Source of the DNA: a virus
Length of the DNA stretch: 63,198 bases
Direction: 5' to 3' (one strand)
IMG/VR virus record: IMGVR_UViG_3300045929_000106
Location: 1 to 63,198 of that record
Shown: positions 3,760-32,371 of the stretch, piece by piece
Layout: each line of letters starts with the position of its first letter
Position numbering within the stretch: the first letter of the stretch is position 1
Notes under the pieces: generated by a model
What the model was told of the DNA's origin: nothing
Seen by the model: the letters and a program-made list of their open reading frames with translations, nothing else
Databases searched by the model: none
Translations under genes and position numbers: made by a program

Positions 3760-4295
3760 TGAAAGAAGACGAGATTATTGCGCGCCACGGCAAAGTTCAA
3801 GAGCGCATTGTAAAGAGCGAGCCCAGTAAAGAGAAAGTGGGAATGTATCTGAAGTCGCAACGTTATGACATATGGTGGGAACCGGCTCAAATTGCGCCCG
3901 CCTACAATGACCGTCGAAAGTTTTCGGATAAGGGCGACCTGCATATCAGGCTCAACAACCGAGTGGAGCATATTGAGGTGAAGGAGCGTGATGTCGAGTT
4001 TACGCGCCAGGAAGACTTCCCACACGAGTGGGTGTTCATATGCAGCGTTGACCCTTTCATGGCGGCGGCGCGAGAGGGGCGAACGCCGCTCGCTGTTGTG
4101 TTCCTGAATAGCGCCAACAGCCATGTGGCGGTGACCCACATATTTACACGGAACGAATGGAAAGTGCGACCGAGAGTATACGATAAGTTGCTGGGAACTT
4201 ATGCTGACACATTTGTCATTCGCCCGGATCAGGTAATGTTCGGCCCGTTTCACGAGGTTGACACTTTGTTGCTTCTGGAATCAGTAAGATCATGA
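3759..4295 (+). CDS. Small PD-(D/E)XK-like protein, possible nuclease or resolvase
   Basis: A 178-residue protein whose ATG overlaps the previous stop and whose stop overlaps the next start (ATGA). Residues 58-75 read as KGD followed by HIEVK, giving Asp60, Glu73 and Lys75 in the spacing of a PD-(D/E)XK active site. It is visibly more AT-rich than both neighbours, which suggests a separate origin. A Holliday-junction resolvase or a restriction-type nuclease are alternatives. No family name is certain. Confidence 0.55.
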   Translation: MKEDEIIARHGKVQERIVKSEPSKEKVGMYLKSQRYDIWWEPAQIAPAYNDRRKFSDKGDLHIRLNNRVEHIEVKERDVEFTRQEDFPHEWVFICSVDPFMAAAREGRTPLAVVFLNSANSHVAVTHIFTRNEWKVRPRVYDKLLGTYADTFVIRPDQVMFGPFHEVDTLLLLESVRS

Positions 4296-5137
4296 AACAA
4301 ATCCCTATCCAGATCGAGGGCTTCACGTTCGATTCGACGCCCGACACCAAGCCCGCCGTCTGCGTTTACGGCGAGGAGAACACCGGCAAGACCCGGTTCG
4401 GCTGCACGGTCCCGCACGATAGCGGCGTGGTGGGCTGGCTGGCCCTCGACAAGAACTCCAAGGGCACGGTGGAGCAGTACCAGGAGCGGAACGGGGACCG
4501 GCGCATCCTGGTCAACCAGAAGCCGTTCCTGTCCAACAAGGACGCCATCAAGCTCGCCATGACGGAGAAGCCCGCCGAAACCAAGCTGTTGGCGAAGGCC
4601 GTCGTAGAGAAGGTCTGGGACCACGCCATGAAGCTCGCGGACCACAAGGACGTGGAGTCCATCGTGATCGATGACGGGTCGCAGTTGTTCGACTGGATTC
4701 TGTTCTCGCATTTCGGCAGGCGCAACCAGATCGAGAGCTACCAGCGGGGCGGGCCTAACAACGACTTCATCGAGCTGATTACGGCGCTCGGCAGCAAGAA
4801 CCTCTGCATGATCTGCCGGGGCACGGAGGTCTGGGCAGACACCGGCGAGGTGGACGCGCAGGGCCGCAAGAAGCAGGCCCCCACCGGCAAGCTCAAGCCG
4901 GAGGGGTTCGGGAAGCTGGGCAAGTTCATGACGGCGGTGGTGGAGCTGTCTGCTACCCGCAAGAAACCGGCGGAGGACGCCACCGCCGAGGAGGCGCTGG
5001 CCGCCAAGTACAAGTGCAAGGTGATGACGTGTAAAGGCGACACGCTGCTGGAGGGCCAGGATCTGACTCCGTTCGGCGTCTGCGGGGCGGAGATCACCTG
5101 GGACAACGTGATGACCGTTATAAGAGCCAAGGACTAG
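4292..5137 (+). CDS. Sak4-like RecA-fold ATPase, single-strand annealing recombinase
   Basis: The 281-residue protein carries Walker A GEENTGKT at residues 27-34 and a Walker B-like SIVIDD ending at Asp127-Asp128. The size, the small first strand before the P-loop and the Walker B context fit the phage nucleotide-binding/Sak4 family, which promotes strand annealing in phage recombination. It is encoded just downstream of two nucleases in an overlapping operon, the usual setting. The late Cys-containing strand near residue 250 is typical of nothing in particular. Confidence 0.7.
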   Translation: MKQIPIQIEGFTFDSTPDTKPAVCVYGEENTGKTRFGCTVPHDSGVVGWLALDKNSKGTVEQYQERNGDRRILVNQKPFLSNKDAIKLAMTEKPAETKLLAKAVVEKVWDHAMKLADHKDVESIVIDDGSQLFDWILFSHFGRRNQIESYQRGGPNNDFIELITALGSKNLCMICRGTEVWADTGEVDAQGRKKQAPTGKLKPEGFGKLGKFMTAVVELSATRKKPAEDATAEEALAAKYKCKVMTCKGDTLLEGQDLTPFGVCGAEITWDNVMTVIRAKD

Positions 5138-5310: not shown

Positions 5311-5495
5311 TGCCGGAGATCAGGCCGTGCCCCGGCTGCGGACAGACGGACGAGCTATTGACCTACCTGGGCATGGGGAGAGGGGGAGCTCTCTACAAGT
5401 GCCCGGTCTGCTCCGGTATTTTCGAGGACAGCGAGCTGGACGAGATCGCCAAGAGGGAAGATGACCGGGATCGAGGCGGGGAGGATGTTGGGTGA
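5310..5495 (+). CDS. Small zinc-ribbon protein
   Basis: A 61-residue protein with CPGC near the N-terminus and CPVC about 25 residues later, a four-cysteine zinc ribbon, followed by a highly acidic and charged tail. The ATG at 5310 shares a base with the previous stop and is preferred over the TTG three bases before. Its stop overlaps the GTG start of the ERCC4-type nuclease. A DNA- or protein-contact role within the recombination operon is inferred. Confidence 0.6.
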   Translation: MPEIRPCPGCGQTDELLTYLGMGRGGALYKCPVCSGIFEDSELDEIAKREDDRDRGGEDVG

Positions 5496-6280
5496 CCGGG
5501 ATAGCGATTGACTCGCGGGTTGGCTCCAGGGAGCTGGCCCCCCTCTTCCGCGACTACGGCATCCAGCCCAGGCTGCGGGAGATGGAGTTCGGGGACATGG
5601 CTTTCGAGGGGAACGGCCCCGCTGGCCGCTGCATGGTGGGGATCGAGCGGAAGACCATCAACGATCTCACGGCCTGCATCGAGGACCGGCGGCTGAGCGG
5701 CCACCAGTTGCCGGGGATGGCCGAGGCCTACGACTACTGCTACCTGATCGTGGAGGGGCTGTGGCGTCCTTCCGCTGACGGCGGCCTCCAGATCGGGGAG
5801 GCGAAATTCAGCCAGGACCAGCGGTTCGGGGGCTACTGGTACAGGCCCCGGCAGCGCCTGCTATACCGGGCGGTGGACAACTACCTCGCCACCCTGGAGC
5901 TGCAGGCGGGCATCATCTACCGGCGCACGTTGACGCCCGTGGAGACGGTGGCGGTGGTGGTCGACCTTTGGCGCTGGTGGCAGGAGAAGGAGTGGGGCGA
6001 GCACTCCTCGCACGTCGCCGTGTACGCACCGGCGCGGATCGGGCGCGGGAGGCTGCAGCTCGCCCGCCGGGAGGCCTCCCTATGCGAGCGCTGGGCCATG
6101 CAGCTCGACGGGGTGGACAAGCGGGCCCGCGAGGTGGCCGAGCATTTCGGGAGCGCCGCCGTGATGGCGCAGGCCTCCGAGAGCGAGTGGCGGGAGATCA
6201 AGGGGATCGGGAAAGGAATCGCCCAGCGGGCGGTAAAGGATATCAATGCTCAAGTACCGGGCTTTGTTGGTGGACACTGA
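5492..6280 (+). CDS. ERCC4/XPF-type structure-specific nuclease with C-terminal HhH region
   Basis: The 262-residue protein has the ERCC4 nuclease signature: Asp7, Gly-Asp at 34-35, and IERKTINDL giving the ERKxxxD motif at residues 52-58. The last 60 residues (from about 205) read like a helix-hairpin-helix domain with IKGIGKGIAQRAV. Family members cut branched or flap DNA. The GTG start at 5492 overlaps the previous stop. With the nucleases and Sak4-like ATPase upstream it makes a complete recombination set. Confidence 0.85.
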   Translation: MTGIAIDSRVGSRELAPLFRDYGIQPRLREMEFGDMAFEGNGPAGRCMVGIERKTINDLTACIEDRRLSGHQLPGMAEAYDYCYLIVEGLWRPSADGGLQIGEAKFSQDQRFGGYWYRPRQRLLYRAVDNYLATLELQAGIIYRRTLTPVETVAVVVDLWRWWQEKEWGEHSSHVAVYAPARIGRGRLQLARREASLCERWAMQLDGVDKRAREVAEHFGSAAVMAQASESEWREIKGIGKGIAQRAVKDINAQVPGFVGGH

Positions 6281-7524: not shown

Positions 7525-7888
7525 GGAACGGGAGGACCGGGCGCAGTTCGCCTCGCTGCCGCCGGTAGTGGAGCTGGAGGACGTGAAGGTTCGCCAGCGG
7601 GTGGTGGCGCTGCTGGAGCTGCTCGATCAGGCGGTGGCCGAGCGCCAGAAGCTGGAGCAGGACGAGGAGAAGTACAAGGTGGAGCTTGGCACTCTCCAGG
7701 AGGCCACCAACCGGCAGGGGTTCCGCTACGGCCTGCTGTGCTTCATGTCGCAGCCGGTGAAGGGCAGACGGACCCTGGACAAGATGCTGCTAATCGAAAA
7801 CGGCTGTCCAGCGGACGCCATTAACCTCTCCTACAAAGAGGGGAAGCCCAGCATCCGGCGCACCTTCAAGCGGCTGGGGGACGAATGA
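7511..7888 (+). CDS. Coiled-coil hypothetical protein
   Basis: A 125-residue protein with a long charged helix at residues 25-70 (heptad-like Leu/Val pattern around VVALLELLDQAVAERQKLEQ) and a small C-terminal domain. A self-associating or accessory DNA-metabolism protein is possible. It ends in an ATGA overlap with an HTH gene. Confidence 0.55.
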   Translation: MNNFEEREDRAQFASLPPVVELEDVKVRQRVVALLELLDQAVAERQKLEQDEEKYKVELGTLQEATNRQGFRYGLLCFMSQPVKGRRTLDKMLLIENGCPADAINLSYKEGKPSIRRTFKRLGDE

Positions 7889-8085
7889 ACGAGCCGCCCC
7901 GCAAGGACCCGATGGCCATCCTCTGGGTGGCCGCCAACCGCAGCGCCCTGACCGAGGTCGCCAAGCAGTGCGGCTGCTCGGTGCAATTTGTGAGCTATGT
8001 GTTATACGGGCGTAAACGGTCTGGGGACGGAAAGGTGGAGCGCCTGCTCAGAGAGTTAGGGGCCCCAATTAAATCAACAAGGTGA
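7885..8085 (+). CDS. Small helix-turn-helix (Cro-like) protein
   Basis: A 66-residue protein with an HTH-like stretch ALTEVAKQCGCSVQFVSYVL at residues 21-40, followed by a basic helix. It is of a size typical for Cro-type regulators. Its ATG overlaps the previous stop and its TGA overlaps the GTG of the next gene. A regulator of this operon is a reasonable inference. Confidence 0.55.
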   Translation: MNEPPRKDPMAILWVAANRSALTEVAKQCGCSVQFVSYVLYGRKRSGDGKVERLLRELGAPIKSTR

Positions 8086-8699
8086 ATCACATGGACACAT
8101 TACAAGCATTAGAGCCAGTCTCCAATGACGCGGCGGCGATTATTGATATATCGCAGCCTTATGCGGTTGCCTGCAGAGTTGTTGGCACTTGCCCAATTCT
8201 ATTTCATCGCTGGTCCGTGGAAAGCGTGGAAGCCAAGGGAAGGGCTGCCAAAGGGTCAGCGGCCAAGAAGACGGATGACGTTGACTCGTATGTCTATCGA
8301 ATGCCCTCCGGCGAACTGGCCATTCCATCGGAAAATCTGCGCATGTCGGTAATCAACGCGGCAAAGTACCGGCAAGACCCCAGATCTCCACGTAAATCTG
8401 CAATGGATCTGTTCAAGGCGGCCATTGCATGTTTTGAGCCGTATTGCGGACTGGGCGTGAGTAAATGGGAATACATTGATCAGCGGCGAGTAACGGTGCA
8501 GCGCGCCGGAGTAACCCGCCGCCGCCCCGCCCTGGCTGAAGGCTGGTCCGTGGAAGTTATATTCCAGATCCTGTTGCCGGAATATATTTCTCCAACTATG
8601 CTCAACGAGACAATACAGTCAGCCGGAAAACTGATTGGGGTATGTGACTTTAGGCCATCATATGGAAGGTATCAGGTAACAGAATTCCGAGTAGTATAG
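8082..8699 (+). CDS. Conserved-looking phage hypothetical protein, possibly RAMP-like
   Basis: A 205-residue protein with PILFHRW near residue 39, a short basic linker, LAIPSENLRMSVINAAKY near 85-102, and a C-terminal LIGVCDFRPSYGRYQVTEF. I have seen this order in unnamed phage proteins, and the arrangement recalls Cas7/RAMP folds, but that link is only an impression. The GTG at 8082 overlaps the previous stop; an ATG at 8091 is an alternative. The gene is more AT-rich than its neighbours and is the last before the pentamer repeat. Confidence 0.5.
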   Translation: MNHMDTLQALEPVSNDAAAIIDISQPYAVACRVVGTCPILFHRWSVESVEAKGRAAKGSAAKKTDDVDSYVYRMPSGELAIPSENLRMSVINAAKYRQDPRSPRKSAMDLFKAAIACFEPYCGLGVSKWEYIDQRRVTVQRAGVTRRRPALAEGWSVEVIFQILLPEYISPTMLNETIQSAGKLIGVCDFRPSYGRYQVTEFRVV

Positions 8700-8700
8700 G

Positions 8701-8897
8701 GCGCGGCCTGCCGGGGCGTGGTTCGGCAGGGCGGGGTATGGCATGGCGTGGCAAGGCGAGGCATGGCAAGATGTGGCGTGGCAAGCCAAGATCTGGCGCG
8801 GTCTGATCGGGCGCGGCGGGGCTTTGGCGAGGCCCGGTTGGGCACGGCGTGGACGGGCGAGGCAAGGTTTGGCCTGGGTGGGGCAAGGCAAGGCATG
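8701..8897. repeat. Degenerate 5-bp periodic array (GCNNG)
   Basis: From the end of the previous gene the sequence is an unbroken series of five-base units. The first 24 units (8701-8820) all end in G, and 17 of them fit GCNNG, most often GCAAG, GCGTG, GCATG and GCGCG. Phase slips by one base near 8826 and again near 8882, and then continues, giving about 39 units. The two variable middle bases differ freely, so this is not a simple slippage repeat. All coding frames across it are by-products of the period. Function unknown. Confidence 0.85.
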
Positions 8898-8933
8898 GAT
8901 ACCTTATTAAGGTTTAACTTAAACTGCCACGCC

Positions 8934-8961
8934 CGGTTTCTTTTTTTCGGGGCGGGTGGCT
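8934..8961 (+). terminator. Possible imperfect stem with T-run after the pentamer array
   Basis: An imperfect inverted repeat (arms related to GCCACGCCCG and CGGGGCGGGTGGC) surrounds a run of seven T. It lies between the repeat array and the next gene. The T-run is in the loop, not after the stem, so it is a weak terminator candidate and may instead be a leader structure for the gene at 8987. Confidence 0.25.
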
Positions 8962-19697: not shown

Positions 19698-21442
19698 GTC
19701 TTGGTCACCTTCAGCATCAGGGCGGCGCGGGTCACCGTCGCCACCGAGTCCACGTTGAAGCGCAGGCAGTCTCCGGCGGTGATCGTGGTTGTCCAGCCGG
19801 TCAGGGTGGAGGAGCTGTTGTTGGTGGCGCTGGACACCGTGGGCTTGGCGCTGGCGGTAATGGTGTCCGCAACCGTGGGCGGGTAGTTGGCCAGGGTGTC
19901 CTTCCAGATGTCGAACACAATGGAGCCCGAGGTGTCACAGAGGATCGTCCACTGGTTGATCGTGCAGCCGAAGTCCACCCGGATATCGGCCTTCACGCCG
20001 GTGGTCAGCGCCGAGCCGCCGCCGTCCAGCACGATAGTGATATCCGCGATGTTGGTGTTGGTGACGGTCCCCGCGCCCGTGTAACCTGTATACCCGGTAG
20101 GCCCGGTAGCGCCAGCCCCGGCGGGCCCGGTGTAACCGGTTGGCCCCGTGGGGCCGGTGACATTGGAGGCTGGCCCCGTATAACCAGTAGGGCCGGTAGG
20201 GCCAGCTCCCCCAGCCGTTCCCGCCGTTCCCTGTGGTCCGGTGTAACCAGTCGGGCCCGTGGAGCCTTGCGAGCCGTTGGAGCCCGCCGGTCCCGTGTAA
20301 CCCGTGGGGCCGGTGAAGTTCCCCGGCCCTGTGTAGCCAGTGAAGCCGGTGTAACCGGTTGGCCCGGTAAACCCGGTAGGCCCGGTAGACCCCACCGAGC
20401 CAGCGGAGATCGTGGTCTGGATATGCGACCCGTGCGTGGCCCCCTGTAGATACATCGTCACCGTGATCGTGCCGGGGCCGGAGACGCGCTGAGCATAGAT
20501 CTTGTTGACGATGCGGTCAGTCGAAGACATCGCGCCGCCGCCCGAGGGCGTGGCGATCCACTCCTGCAACGCGACGGCGACATTCGTGAACGGCTCGCTG
20601 TACTCGTCGCGCACCAGGGTTTCCACCCCCGCGCCAGTGCGCGCGTAGACCAGCAGGTGTATCCGCGCCGCGCCGCTGGACGTGGACGCATAGACGCGCC
20701 GGAAGGCCGTGCCCGCCGGGTAGTCCACTGCGCCGGGGACGCCGGGATCGGTGGCGAACTCATCGATCAGGACATCGCTCGTGCCGGAGCAGGACACGGG
20801 TATGGTTGTCTCCGCGAGCGCGGACGGGGACTCCAGCATCCGCTTGTAGCCGGTGATATCGCTGGAAGTGTTCTCATAATAGAAGATGCGGCCCGCCGAG
20901 ATGCCCTCTTCACCTTGCGGGCCTGTATAGCCGGTGGGCCCGGTTTCACCTGCGGGCCCCGTATAACCGGTGGGACCCGTGGAGCCTTGCGAACCTGCGG
21001 AACCTGCCGTCCCCTGCGGACCCGTGTAACCAGTAGGGCCTGTGTAACCAGTGGGCCCTTGCGAGCCCGCGTCTCCGGCGGAACCCGCTGGACCCGTATA
21101 GCCGGTTGGACCCGTGTAGCCGGTTGGGCCTTGCGGACCAGCTCCCCCCGCATCCCCTGCGATTCCCTGCGGCCCGGTATAACCAGTGGGTCCGGTTGCT
21201 CCCGCCGGTCCCGCAGCCCCTGTGTAACCCGTGTAACCAGTGGGACCCGTCGCGCCAGCGGAACCCGAGGGACCCGTGGGGCCTGTGGGGCCAGTGCTCC
21301 CAGCTCCGCCCCCAGGCATGTCCACCCAGGCTCCGGTCCCGTCCATGACCTTGCCGGGATCGTTGGGCAGAGGCTCATCCGGGGCCAGGACATAATCCCC
21401 GGTTCCGGTGATGCCGAGACAGTCGTTGAGTCCGCGTGGCAT
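19694..21442 (-). CDS. Collagen-like tail fibre protein (long)
   Basis: The 582-residue protein has two blocks of Gly-Pro-Thr-Gly-Tyr-Thr-Gly-type triplets, near residues 55-200 and 345-480, separated and followed by globular beta-rich domains. Gly-X-Y triplets form trimeric collagen-like rods in phage fibres. The start at 21442 is preferred: AAGGACG lies before this ATG, whereas the upstream TTG at 21475 is inside the previous gene. Its C-terminal domain may bind the host. Confidence 0.75.
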
Positions 21443-21461
21443 ACTGCGTCCTTGGGAAAGA

Positions 21462-22034
21462 TTACGTAAGCTCAAACCACTTCTGGAGCGTCTGAGATCC
21501 CCCGTCCCATGCCACCTTGTAATACTGCCCCGGAAGGACCCATGTCTGCACCGTCCTCGTCTGGGAACTGGCTGGCGCGTGTTCTGCCGCCGCTATGGTT
21601 GTGGGGGGATTAAATGCGTCGGTATAAAAGCAGAGGGTTCCTGAGACGCTTGCGTAGCCATAGACCTGAACCAGCTTTGCGACGGCCCCGGTATTCTGGT
21701 AAACCGTGTCGAAGGCGCGAGAGGCGGTAACATCACTCCGGGTAGTGATCCCCGGAGCCGTCCACTTGATTCCCCTGGCTTGTGCCGAATCCGCCGCCAG
21801 CACCTGACCGTCTGACCCTGCCGGAACGCGAGCATCTACCGTCGAGTAGCCCCAGAGGTCGCCCTTGGTGGTAAGTGGGGAGGACGATCCGCCAACAGGA
21901 GTAACATCATCCCAGGTCGCGCCGTTGTCGTACCAGATCTCGCCGGTGTCCGTGGCGAAGAACAGCCGCCCCTCGATGCTCGCCGCTGGGCGGTTGGCGA
22001 ACGTGTCCTTGAGAATCACATTGGCTAGGGTCAA
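21462..22034 (-). CDS. Tail-fibre-associated protein
   Basis: A 190-residue protein with [20 protein letters not shown] near residues 22-41, a phrase common in phage tail fibre and chaperone-like regions. It has a TTG start overlapping the stop of the upstream collagen gene, so it is translated by coupling. Strand-rich, likely a fibre tip or adhesin module. Confidence in the class is moderate, in details low. Confidence 0.5.
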
Positions 22035-22816
22035 TTGGGAACTCCTACTACGGTTACAACATCACCGCCCGCAAAGATAAAGTTATTGTTTCCGTCCGTC
22101 AGGGACTCGTCATGCACGTCGGGGGTCCCGCCGCCTCCGCCTGCTGGCCCTGTGTAGCCGGTGTAGCCGGTTGGCCCGGTTGGTCCGGTGGCCCCCGCCA
22201 CCCCGTCGCCACCGTCCGCGCCTGCTGGGCCGGTGTATCCAGTGGGGCCAGTCGAGCCGAGACCCGTATAGCCCGTATAACCGGTGGGGCCGGTTGCCCC
22301 CGTATAACCTACGGGGCCGGTGAAACCAGTGAAGCCCGTGGGGCCCGTGTAGCCTGTCGGGCCGGTAGCGCCATCGGGGCCCGTGTAGCCGGTGGGGCCG
22401 GTGGGGCCGCCCGATTCTCCCCCCGGCCCTGTCGGACCCGTGGGGCCGGTTGGACCGGCGGATGGCCCGGTGGGGCCGGTGGGTCCTGCTGGGCCCGTAG
22501 GGCCGGTAGCGCCCCCGCCGCCCCCGCCGCCGGTGGCGTTGATGACGATCCTGACCCGCTCGTTGTTGACATCGTTGTTGTCCGCGCCAGCGATGGCGAC
22601 GTTGGTTCCCGAGATGAACTCCAGCTTGGAGCGGGTCCCCACCTCCGAGCCGTCGACCTGAACCTCCAGCGCCCGGTGGTCGAGCTGATCGTCCACCTCC
22701 AGCAGCTTGTCGCGGAGATCGTAGACCAACTGGTAGAGGCGGCGGATCGCGGTCTTCAGCGCCTCCGGCAGCGGCAGGGACTCCAGGTTCGGGATGTGGC
22801 GCGGGAGGGCGGCCAT
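22031..22816 (-). CDS. Collagen-like tail fibre protein (short)
   Basis: A 261-residue protein: a helical charged N-terminus (about 1-90), a glycine run, then Gly-Pro-Thr/Gly-Tyr-Thr triplets from about residue 100 to 240, and a short beta end. The triplets match those of the longer collagen-like gene about 600 bases downstream on the minus strand, so the two may form mixed or alternative trimers. Confidence 0.7.
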
Positions 22817-30965: not shown

Positions 30966-31075
30966 CCACCGCTATACCACCGGAATCCCACCGGAATACC
31001 CACCCCCGGGAATACCACCGGAATACCACCGGAATACCACCGCTATGCCACCGGAATACCACCGGAATACCGCCA
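30966..31075. repeat. 11-bp tandem repeat array
   Basis: Ten tandem units of about 11 bp, most reading CCACCGGAATA on the plus strand, with CCACCGCTATA/G variants and one expanded 16-bp unit at 30999-31014. The array fills the gap between two minus-strand genes, from the stop of the upstream gene to six bases before the ATG at 30959. Because 11 is not a multiple of three, every frame of the array gives a repeated peptide. It probably affects RNA structure or initiation of the nozzle gene, but this is inference. Confidence 0.85.
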
Positions 31076-32371
31076 TCACGCCACCTGCTGGTCCGTCAGG
31101 TCCGCGCGCTGGAAGAGGCTCGTCAGGTAGCGGACCTTCGTCTCCAGCCGCTTGTTGCGCCGCGCCGCTCCCGCCAGGAAGTTGTCGTAGAGCGGCATGG
31201 TCGAGATGAATTCCGCGCCGCCCATCTTCCAGCTCAGGATGTGACGGCAGTAATCGTAGAGGTAGGGCAGCTCCTCGCGGCCCGCCTGGACGTAATCGCC
31301 CGCGCCGGTGGTGAGCGGGGCCGCCTGCACGAGATCCAGGCTGATGGTATACGCGCCCCGGGGGACGCGGTAGAGGGCCAGGAGATCGTAGGCGGCGGCG
31401 GCCTGCGAGGGAACGCCGAGGGAAGTCGCCCAGAACGGCTTGGCGCAATCCATCTCCGCGATGGTGGCGAGCGGAACCGGCGAGCCGTTGACGCGCACGC
31501 GGAGCATCGAGTGCGCCATGGCGGCGATGTCCAGGGCGTTCTGGTAGCGCTCCTGGCAGTACTTGGCGCGCAGCGGATCGTAGCCGGGGTTGTGCGTCGA
31601 GAGCAGATCGTAGAGCGCGCCCCACTTCAGCGCCCAGGCCCACTCGTCGGGAATGGCGAAGCTCACGGCGTCGTTGGGGATCAGCTCCAGCGTCTGCGCG
31701 TAGATCAGGTGGATCGTCCCGGCGCCGCTCGGCGGCGGAACCAGGGTGAGACTCCCGGGCATCGACTCCGCCTGCGAATAGCCGTAGGGCTTGCCGGGGT
31801 TCAAGCTCCACAGGGGGGAGTAGGCCTGCGCGGCGTAGAAGTCCGTGCGGCTGAGCGACCAGGAGGTGACGGTGTCCGTGTCCGTCCACGCCGCCCGGTC
31901 GATCACCGCCACGTCTTGCGGCAGGGGCACGGAGTTGGCGGGCGGGGCCGGTGGCGTCAGGGTGGTGGTGGTCAGCGGCAGGTGCGCGTCGATCACAAAC
32001 TGGTTACGGCGGCGCACGAGGGCTGCGGTGATCTGGTTGATCGAGAACTGCGGCGTCATGCCGGTCCCGGCGGTTCCGGCGGCGGCAGGCTCCAGCAGGT
32101 GGTGTTGGATCTCGGTGACGAGGTTCCCGAAGGCGTAGTCGCGGCGGCGCAGGGTGGGCAGTTCTTGGGAGAGATCGTAGAGGGCGGTGTTGGCTACGGT
32201 GGAGAAACTGGCGGAGGTTGTCCAGTAACTGCAGAGGGCCCCCCATGCGAGAAGAGACTCGTGGAGGGCCCTGCGCAGCTCGTCGGAAGTCCAGAAGACG
32301 AGATCGGGGTCGCCCAGGCTGGCCGCCAATTCAGCGATGAACTGAGACTCCGTAACCTGGGTGTAAGCCAC
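31076..32371 (-). CDS. Probable structural adaptor protein
   Basis: A 431-residue protein with a helical N-terminus (SQFIAELAASLGDPDLVFWT) and several strand- and Trp-rich parts. GTG start with GGGAGATG upstream. It lies between the adaptor-like protein at 32.6 kb and the nozzle-like protein, so a head-tail or tail connector is likely. The final helical 70 residues are charged. Confidence 0.5.
   Translation of the reverse strand: MAYTQVTESQFIAELAASLGDPDLVFWTSDELRRALHESLLAWGALCSYWTTSASFSTVANTALYDLSQELPTLRRRDYAFGNLVTEIQHHLLEPAAAGTAGTGMTPQFSINQITAALVRRRNQFVIDAHLPLTTTTLTPPAPPANSVPLPQDVAVIDRAAWTDTDTVTSWSLSRTDFYAAQAYSPLWSLNPGKPYGYSQAESMPGSLTLVPPPSGAGTIHLIYAQTLELIPNDAVSFAIPDEWAWALKWGALYDLLSTHNPGYDPLRAKYCQERYQNALDIAAMAHSMLRVRVNGSPVPLATIAEMDCAKPFWATSLGVPSQAAAAYDLLALYRVPRGAYTISLDLVQAAPLTTGAGDYVQAGREELPYLYDYCRHILSWKMGGAEFISTMPLYDNFLAGAARRNKRLETKVRYLTSLFQRADLTDQQVA

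Follow-up and report, generated by a model that had tools for sequence, protein, structure and literature searches.

A degenerate GGYNN array downstream of a Cas7-like gene in a virus from IMG/VR very probably provides the guides of a VIPR system

The window analysed here is a viral DNA stretch of 63,198 nucleotides (positions 1 to 63,198 of IMG/VR record IMGVR_UViG_3300045929_000106). Near one end, genes on the plus strand lead into an array of short degenerate units, for which we use the names of VIPR (Viral Interference Programmable Repeat), a phage-borne system described in a bioRxiv preprint of April-June 2026 (PMC13142463), with its protein Vipr and its guide RNA, the vrRNA. The locus holds the following features:

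4292 to 5137, plus strand: gene for a Sak4-like ssDNA-annealing protein (phrog_124, E = 5.2e-6)
5492 to 6280, plus strand: gene for an ERCC4-type nuclease in the same gene run (PF02732, E = 7.9e-10)
7885 to 8085, plus strand: gene for a 66-aa helix-turn-helix protein (PF13560, E = 3e-4, under the gathering score)
8082 to 8699, plus strand: vipr, encoding a 205-aa Cas7-like RAMP protein (assigned by profile and fold; member of phrog_4652, function unknown in PHROGs)
8700 to 8825, plus strand: predicted vrRNA array, first in-register block of 25 GGYNN units, the final unit of 6 nt (GGCTTT)
8826 to 8876, plus strand: predicted vrRNA array, second block of 10 units after the first slip, the final unit of 6 nt (GGCCTG)
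8877 to 8896, plus strand: predicted vrRNA array, last four units (GGTGG GGCAA GGCAA GGCAT)
8897 to 8960, plus strand: putative vrRNA 3′ tail, with a hairpin at 8901-8913 and a GC-rich stem-loop at about 8924-8959 (RNA fold)

The array starts at the base directly after the vipr stop codon and comprises 39 pentamers of the form G-G-Y-N-N at 8700-8896 on the plus strand, with G at the first position of 39 of 39 units, G at the second of 34 and C or T at the third of 38. Its 5-bp self-match, measured over the 200-bp stretch from 8700, is 0.544. All 200-bp stretches of the window average 0.251 (sd 0.034), no other place scores above 0.374, and none of 2000 dinucleotide shuffles of the same stretch rose above 0.431. 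The 5-bp periodicity proposed in the original prediction is thus real, and the 24 units at 8701-8820 do lie in register, each with a terminal G. Of these units, 16 rather than the stated 17 fit GCNNG exactly, against a shuffle maximum of 8. Dynamic programming placed the two predicted single-base phase slips at GGCTTT (8820-8825) and GGCCTG (8871-8876) and extended the array to 40 units at 8700-8901, the fortieth of which (GGATA) is probably part of the 3′ tail. Neither autocorrelation nor the array detector found a second GGYNN array elsewhere in the window. As had been predicted, the array forms no credible gene, and its middle bases vary freely, in the manner of no slippage repeat: 14 of the 16 possible dinucleotides occur at the NN positions, with an entropy of 3.5 bits over the 39 units, and it is these free bases that turn out to be the point of the array. 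Rfam yielded no match in the window or in nine related loci, hammerhead ribozymes included.

That first reading made no connection between the array and the gene directly upstream. This gene begins with a GTG codon at 8082, with an in-frame ATG at 8091, and its product matches phrog_4652, a PHROGs family of unknown function (E = 1.4e-15) whose entry gives neither a function nor an array. Pfam holds no family for the protein and none that is reliable for its homologues. A sequence search of the PDB returned one match, 36pp, entitled 'SUSP1 Vipr protein', at E = 7e-4 with a single sequence (phmmer) and at E = 2.5e-11 once ten homologues had been combined into a profile. The window protein and the SUSP1 gene product aligned in hhalign with a probability of 98.3 (E = 2e-14); the two proteins are 23% identical over 184 aligned positions, and an HMM built from the window's relatives recovered the SUSP1 vipr gene at E = 1.2e-14. 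By these sequence comparisons, the 205-aa protein is a distant homologue of SUSP1 Vipr. An AlphaFold2 model built from 67 homologues (pLDDT 88.6, pTM 0.79), which replaced an earlier model from 9 sequences (pLDDT 64), matched only CRISPR effector RAMP proteins among the 50 PDB matches listed by Foldseek (best E = 2e-6) and only CRISPR RAMP proteins among the 50 listed by VIA-align 2 (Z = 12.3, rmsd 3.9, 161 residues), led in both cases by type VII and type III Cas7/Csm3. Kinship to these RAMP proteins is thus by fold only, the sole sequence relative in the PDB being a Vipr. The C-terminal motif AGrLiGvgDFRPtyGRF is nearly invariant in the 67 homologues and also present in SUSP1 Vipr.

According to the preprint, which studied Escherichia phage SUSP1 and a Pseudomonas fulva prophage closely, Vipr is a phage-borne RAMP protein, put forward as the ancestral form of CRISPR RAMPs, small and with a single RRM core, whose glycine-rich loop and thumb hold the guide RNA; the systems also have a vipr-accessory protein (vap). 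The vrRNA consists of 9-16 YNNGG repeats, with GGY fixed and NN variable, followed by a conserved, structured 3′ tail, and its NN letters read double-stranded DNA noncontiguously, with one base skipped between them. The complex silences genes, chiefly those of rival phages and satellites, and this silencing is reprogrammable. In SUSP1, arrays flank the genes on both sides, with one vrRNA upstream and three downstream (PMC13142463). We found no further literature on VIPR beyond this preprint, and no earlier report of such pentamers.

We consider it about 95% probable that the window array is the vrRNA guide part of a VIPR system whose Vipr is encoded by the gene just 5′ of it. Direct support comes from the array itself, the Vipr homology, the RAMP fold, the linkage and shared strand of gene and array in relatives, and one family's guide that spares its own genome, the last two of which are set out below. 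Extrapolating from the experiments on SUSP1 and P. fulva (PMC13142463), the region would be transcribed in the direction of vipr, and Vipr subunits would coat the RNA, presumably one per GGYNN unit, holding GGY and presenting NN, so as to form a ribonucleoprotein in the window phage as well. The NN pairs would then read a DNA target as NNxNNxNN, skipping one base each time; once bound, the complex would keep this target, which is most likely a gene of a rival phage or prophage, from being transcribed. A 5-nt period is compatible with a footprint of 5 nt for each RAMP subunit, as judged from the preprint and the Cas7 fold, and the original suggestion that the array binds a multimeric protein is probably right, with RNA as the bound form, given the RAMP fold of the neighbouring protein and the strand bias of the arrays.

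We then examined whether gene and array occur together in relatives. Across 90 IMG/VR loci fetched by the Vipr protein alone, including a few duplicates or near-duplicates, a GGYNN array was present at 87, in agreement with the expectation that related phages would carry one; 141 arrays lay on the strand of the gene and 7 were antisense. The viral arrays typically start within 10-50 nt of the vipr stop codon or end upstream of the gene at a distance of some tens of nt, at most about 120 nt. In bacterial genomes, among which Phycisphaerae are frequent, 32 of 34 vipr loci likewise had an array, whereas 0.8 Mb of unrelated background scanned on both strands had none. The reverse test fetched loci by ten perfect GGYNN units alone and called Vipr by profile: Vipr was present in 59 of 80 such loci and in 0 of 48 controls, on the array's strand in all 59 and within 600 bp in 56, while the remaining 21 loci either run into the end of a contig or may carry more distant Viprs. 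Pooled over 6481 units, the first three positions were G (0.95), G (0.82) and Y (0.91), and the information per position was 1.62, 1.04, 0.60, 0.03 and 0.01 bits, the first three values being partly built in by a detector that scores GGY and the last two, for NN, not.

These data bear on two other accounts of the array. One holds that it acts as double-stranded DNA, its half-turn period offering phased sites to a multimeric protein or marking the DNA for packaging or replication. The 5-bp register and the place of the array between gene groups would suit such an element, but arrays are tied to a single gene family in relatives that otherwise share little, the neighbouring protein has an RNA-binding RAMP fold, and in one family the bases at NN contain target-like information (see below). 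The arrays lie nearly always on the strand of the adjacent RAMP gene, which points to RNA. Selection on the register, as originally suggested, stands; its attribution to a DNA half-turn is not supported, and we regard a DNA element as very improbable. Less probable still is a decayed, functionless pentanucleotide microsatellite: although tandem units, a place in the 3′ flank of a gene and phase slips are what slippage would leave, slippage copies all five bases, whereas here NN is near random while GGY is kept over 6481 units, and the arrays are linked to vipr.

Several of the relatives bear on the spread and layout of the arrays. One scan matched 333 viral relatives. The phage collection held no close DNA relatives of the window, and a protein search of it matched only DSL-LC04, Medea1 and LESphi2; a search of plasmid proteins gave one weak match. 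In the complete genome of Phage DSL-LC04 (OR003939.1, L013:5670-6603), Vipr is annotated as a 'helix-turn-helix transcriptional regulator' and an unannotated array of 53 GGYNN units lies upstream of its gene, making this phage a possible laboratory system. A Vipr homologue with a 27-unit array upstream also occurs in Thermomonas flagellata (NZ_JAJOZK010000004.1), a strain record rather than a MAG. Very long array regions, with more than 200 units in all, lie at L009:2341-3704 and L012:9-1171 and are interrupted by non-repeat stretches of tens of bases, for example GTACGGAGCCGGGTCGGGGAGTGATCTCTGGCCCGGC, which may be repeated tails separating vrRNAs. Antisense arrays lie upstream of vipr at L011:3664-3784, L017:2500-2761, L029:2768-2892 and L078:978-1042, which suggests divergent transcription in some systems.

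The putative tail of the window array contains the small hairpin ACCTT ATT AAGGT (8901-8913), and taken alone its fold is non-significant (z = -1.3). Across 162 arrays, the 40 nt directly 3′ had a mean fold z of -1.38 against shuffles, compared with -0.25 for control 40-nt flanks upstream and -0.05 for those further downstream. The arrays of several relatives end in GGCAT or GGTAT followed by GG or GGG, and in several relatives the array has just 16-17 units, roughly as many as a single vrRNA. Guessing from the slips, the 39 units of the window may represent two or three vrRNAs, perhaps overlapping.

Next, we searched for targets. Units 1-8, 9-16, 17-24 and 26-33 of the window array were scanned against all IMG/VR contigs and gave 2, 38, 4 and 4 matches, respectively; those of the last three tiles extend no further than chance, in a search design that would miss guides of 8-10 units spanning two tiles. 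One extension comparison was contaminated, as it included loci that had been retrieved with seeds from the window itself, and its counts were not used. A ten-unit pattern from the window with three mismatches allowed had no match in the records of 50 relatives, and window guides were absent from the 8-unit matches in 4 Mb of local sequence, window included. An early local test of the one-base skip in relatives had given 13 matches against 1-3, and pooling all relatives over the 4 Mb gave 17 distinct 8-unit matches at the one-base skip; other skips gave 9-12 and shuffles 4-19, so that the excess is weak. Because the early excess came mostly from one family, we rely only on that family, whose guide matches a helicase gene:

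L045:3357-3501: guide, with the NN pairs GT AC GC TA CC AG TC TT among the last units before the tail, also in L050, L060, L061, L152 and L154
L044:4474-4496: target on the antisense strand of a DEAD/ResIII helicase gene, also in L048, L054, L093, L146-L149 and L151

Read with one-base skips, all 8 of 8 units of this guide match the helicase gene, which lies just downstream of vipr, in the nine relatives, and the skipped bases vary among the nine target genes. The six prophage-like loci that carry the guide have 3-7 base mismatches in their own helicase gene (Fisher p = 0.011), and 54 of 361 guide-target combinations in this family are complete as against 0 of 19 self combinations; with related sequences and a case picked after the search, the p-values overstate the strength of the pattern. 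The sequences of this family fit what inter-phage silencing with self-avoidance predicts.

This pattern also weighs against a further possibility, namely that the array RNA binds Vipr solely to regulate the operon, by autoregulation or by coating the mRNA, and that no DNA is targeted. The start of the array at the vipr stop codon and the fruitless target searches for window guides are as such regulation would have it, yet the NN positions are hypervariable, guide-target matches with self-avoidance occur in relatives, and reprogrammable silencing is reported in the preprint (PMC13142463). We judge this account very improbable too, if slightly less so than a DNA element.

As a very probable VIPR system, the window locus shares with SUSP1 and P. 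fulva a single small Cas7-like Vipr, GGY/NN arrays flanking vipr on the same strand, a phage-borne setting and, likely, the structured 3′ tail. It differs in having one downstream array of 39 units free of interspersed tails, with two slips only, in place of separate vrRNAs of about 100 nt with 9-16 repeats each. The window also has its array only downstream, unlike SUSP1 with arrays on both sides, and has no recognisable vap1. Applied to SUSP1, our detector found arrays both downstream and upstream of vipr and at its threshold recovered 2 of the 4 vrRNAs there. The backbone proteins of Class 1 CRISPR-Cas (type VII, type III Cas7, Csm3), which line up on guide RNA, share the RAMP fold over residues 22-205 of the window Vipr (VIA-align Z = 12) at a sequence identity of about 10%. 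CRISPR-Cas loci alternate identical repeats with unique spacers, whereas each unit of the window array has three fixed bases and not a long repeat; no repeat-spacer layout was found there, the tandem repeat finder returning only degenerate periods of 5-20 bp. We tentatively raise, while thinking it rather unlikely, the idea that the window's clade is a distinct form of VIPR that needs no protein but Vipr and has one long array uninterrupted by tails, from which several overlapping guides of about 8-10 units would be used mainly by sister phages against one another's replication genes. Were this so, guide and target in Phycisphaerae prophages would co-evolve, each genome escaping its own guide.

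Clustering of neighbouring genes was dominated by antisense or out-of-frame vipr ORFs and was used only for the genes named here. The stop codon of the 66-aa helix-turn-helix gene overlaps the vipr start (GTGA), and from sequence its product is a possible accessory (vap) DNA-binding protein; as no homologue was found near the relatives' vipr genes, it is only a candidate. The ERCC4-type nuclease has its sole homologue among the relatives' neighbours in L026 (40% identity, E = 1.6e-51), directly upstream of the vipr gene. A RusA resolvase gene (PF05866) lies between two GGYNN arrays downstream of vipr at L044:3384-4168, as it does in similar loci of Phycisphaerae, and this gene or the helicase that follows it may be an accessory gene of the Phycisphaerae systems.

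VIPR is proposed as the ancestor of CRISPR and as a means of programmable DNA binding whose code is noncontiguous (PMC13142463). The system has been known since 2026; as far as can be told from the preprint's main text, the window member and the guide-target pairing of its clade have not been reported. Our analysis adds a divergent clade, whose viral relatives number several hundred, in which the pairing of gene and array was found independently from raw sequence. The guide-target pairs that occur naturally in one prophage family, where guides avoid their own genomes, test 'inter-phage warfare' independently of the authors' data, and the GGYNN register combined with a Vipr profile makes a simple detector for unannotated systems.

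Other repeats also occur in the window. A tandem 11-bp repeat, CCACCGGAATA, is present in about 9 copies at 30966-31085, near the start of the region of a 305-aa reverse-strand ORF (30972-31889) and an adjoining 1302-aa ORF. Clusters of 9-, 18- and 27-bp repeats (CCGGTAGGC, GTGTAGCCG) lie at 20214-22532 inside ORFs of the reverse strand, a pattern that collagen-like Gly-X-Y tail proteins might give.
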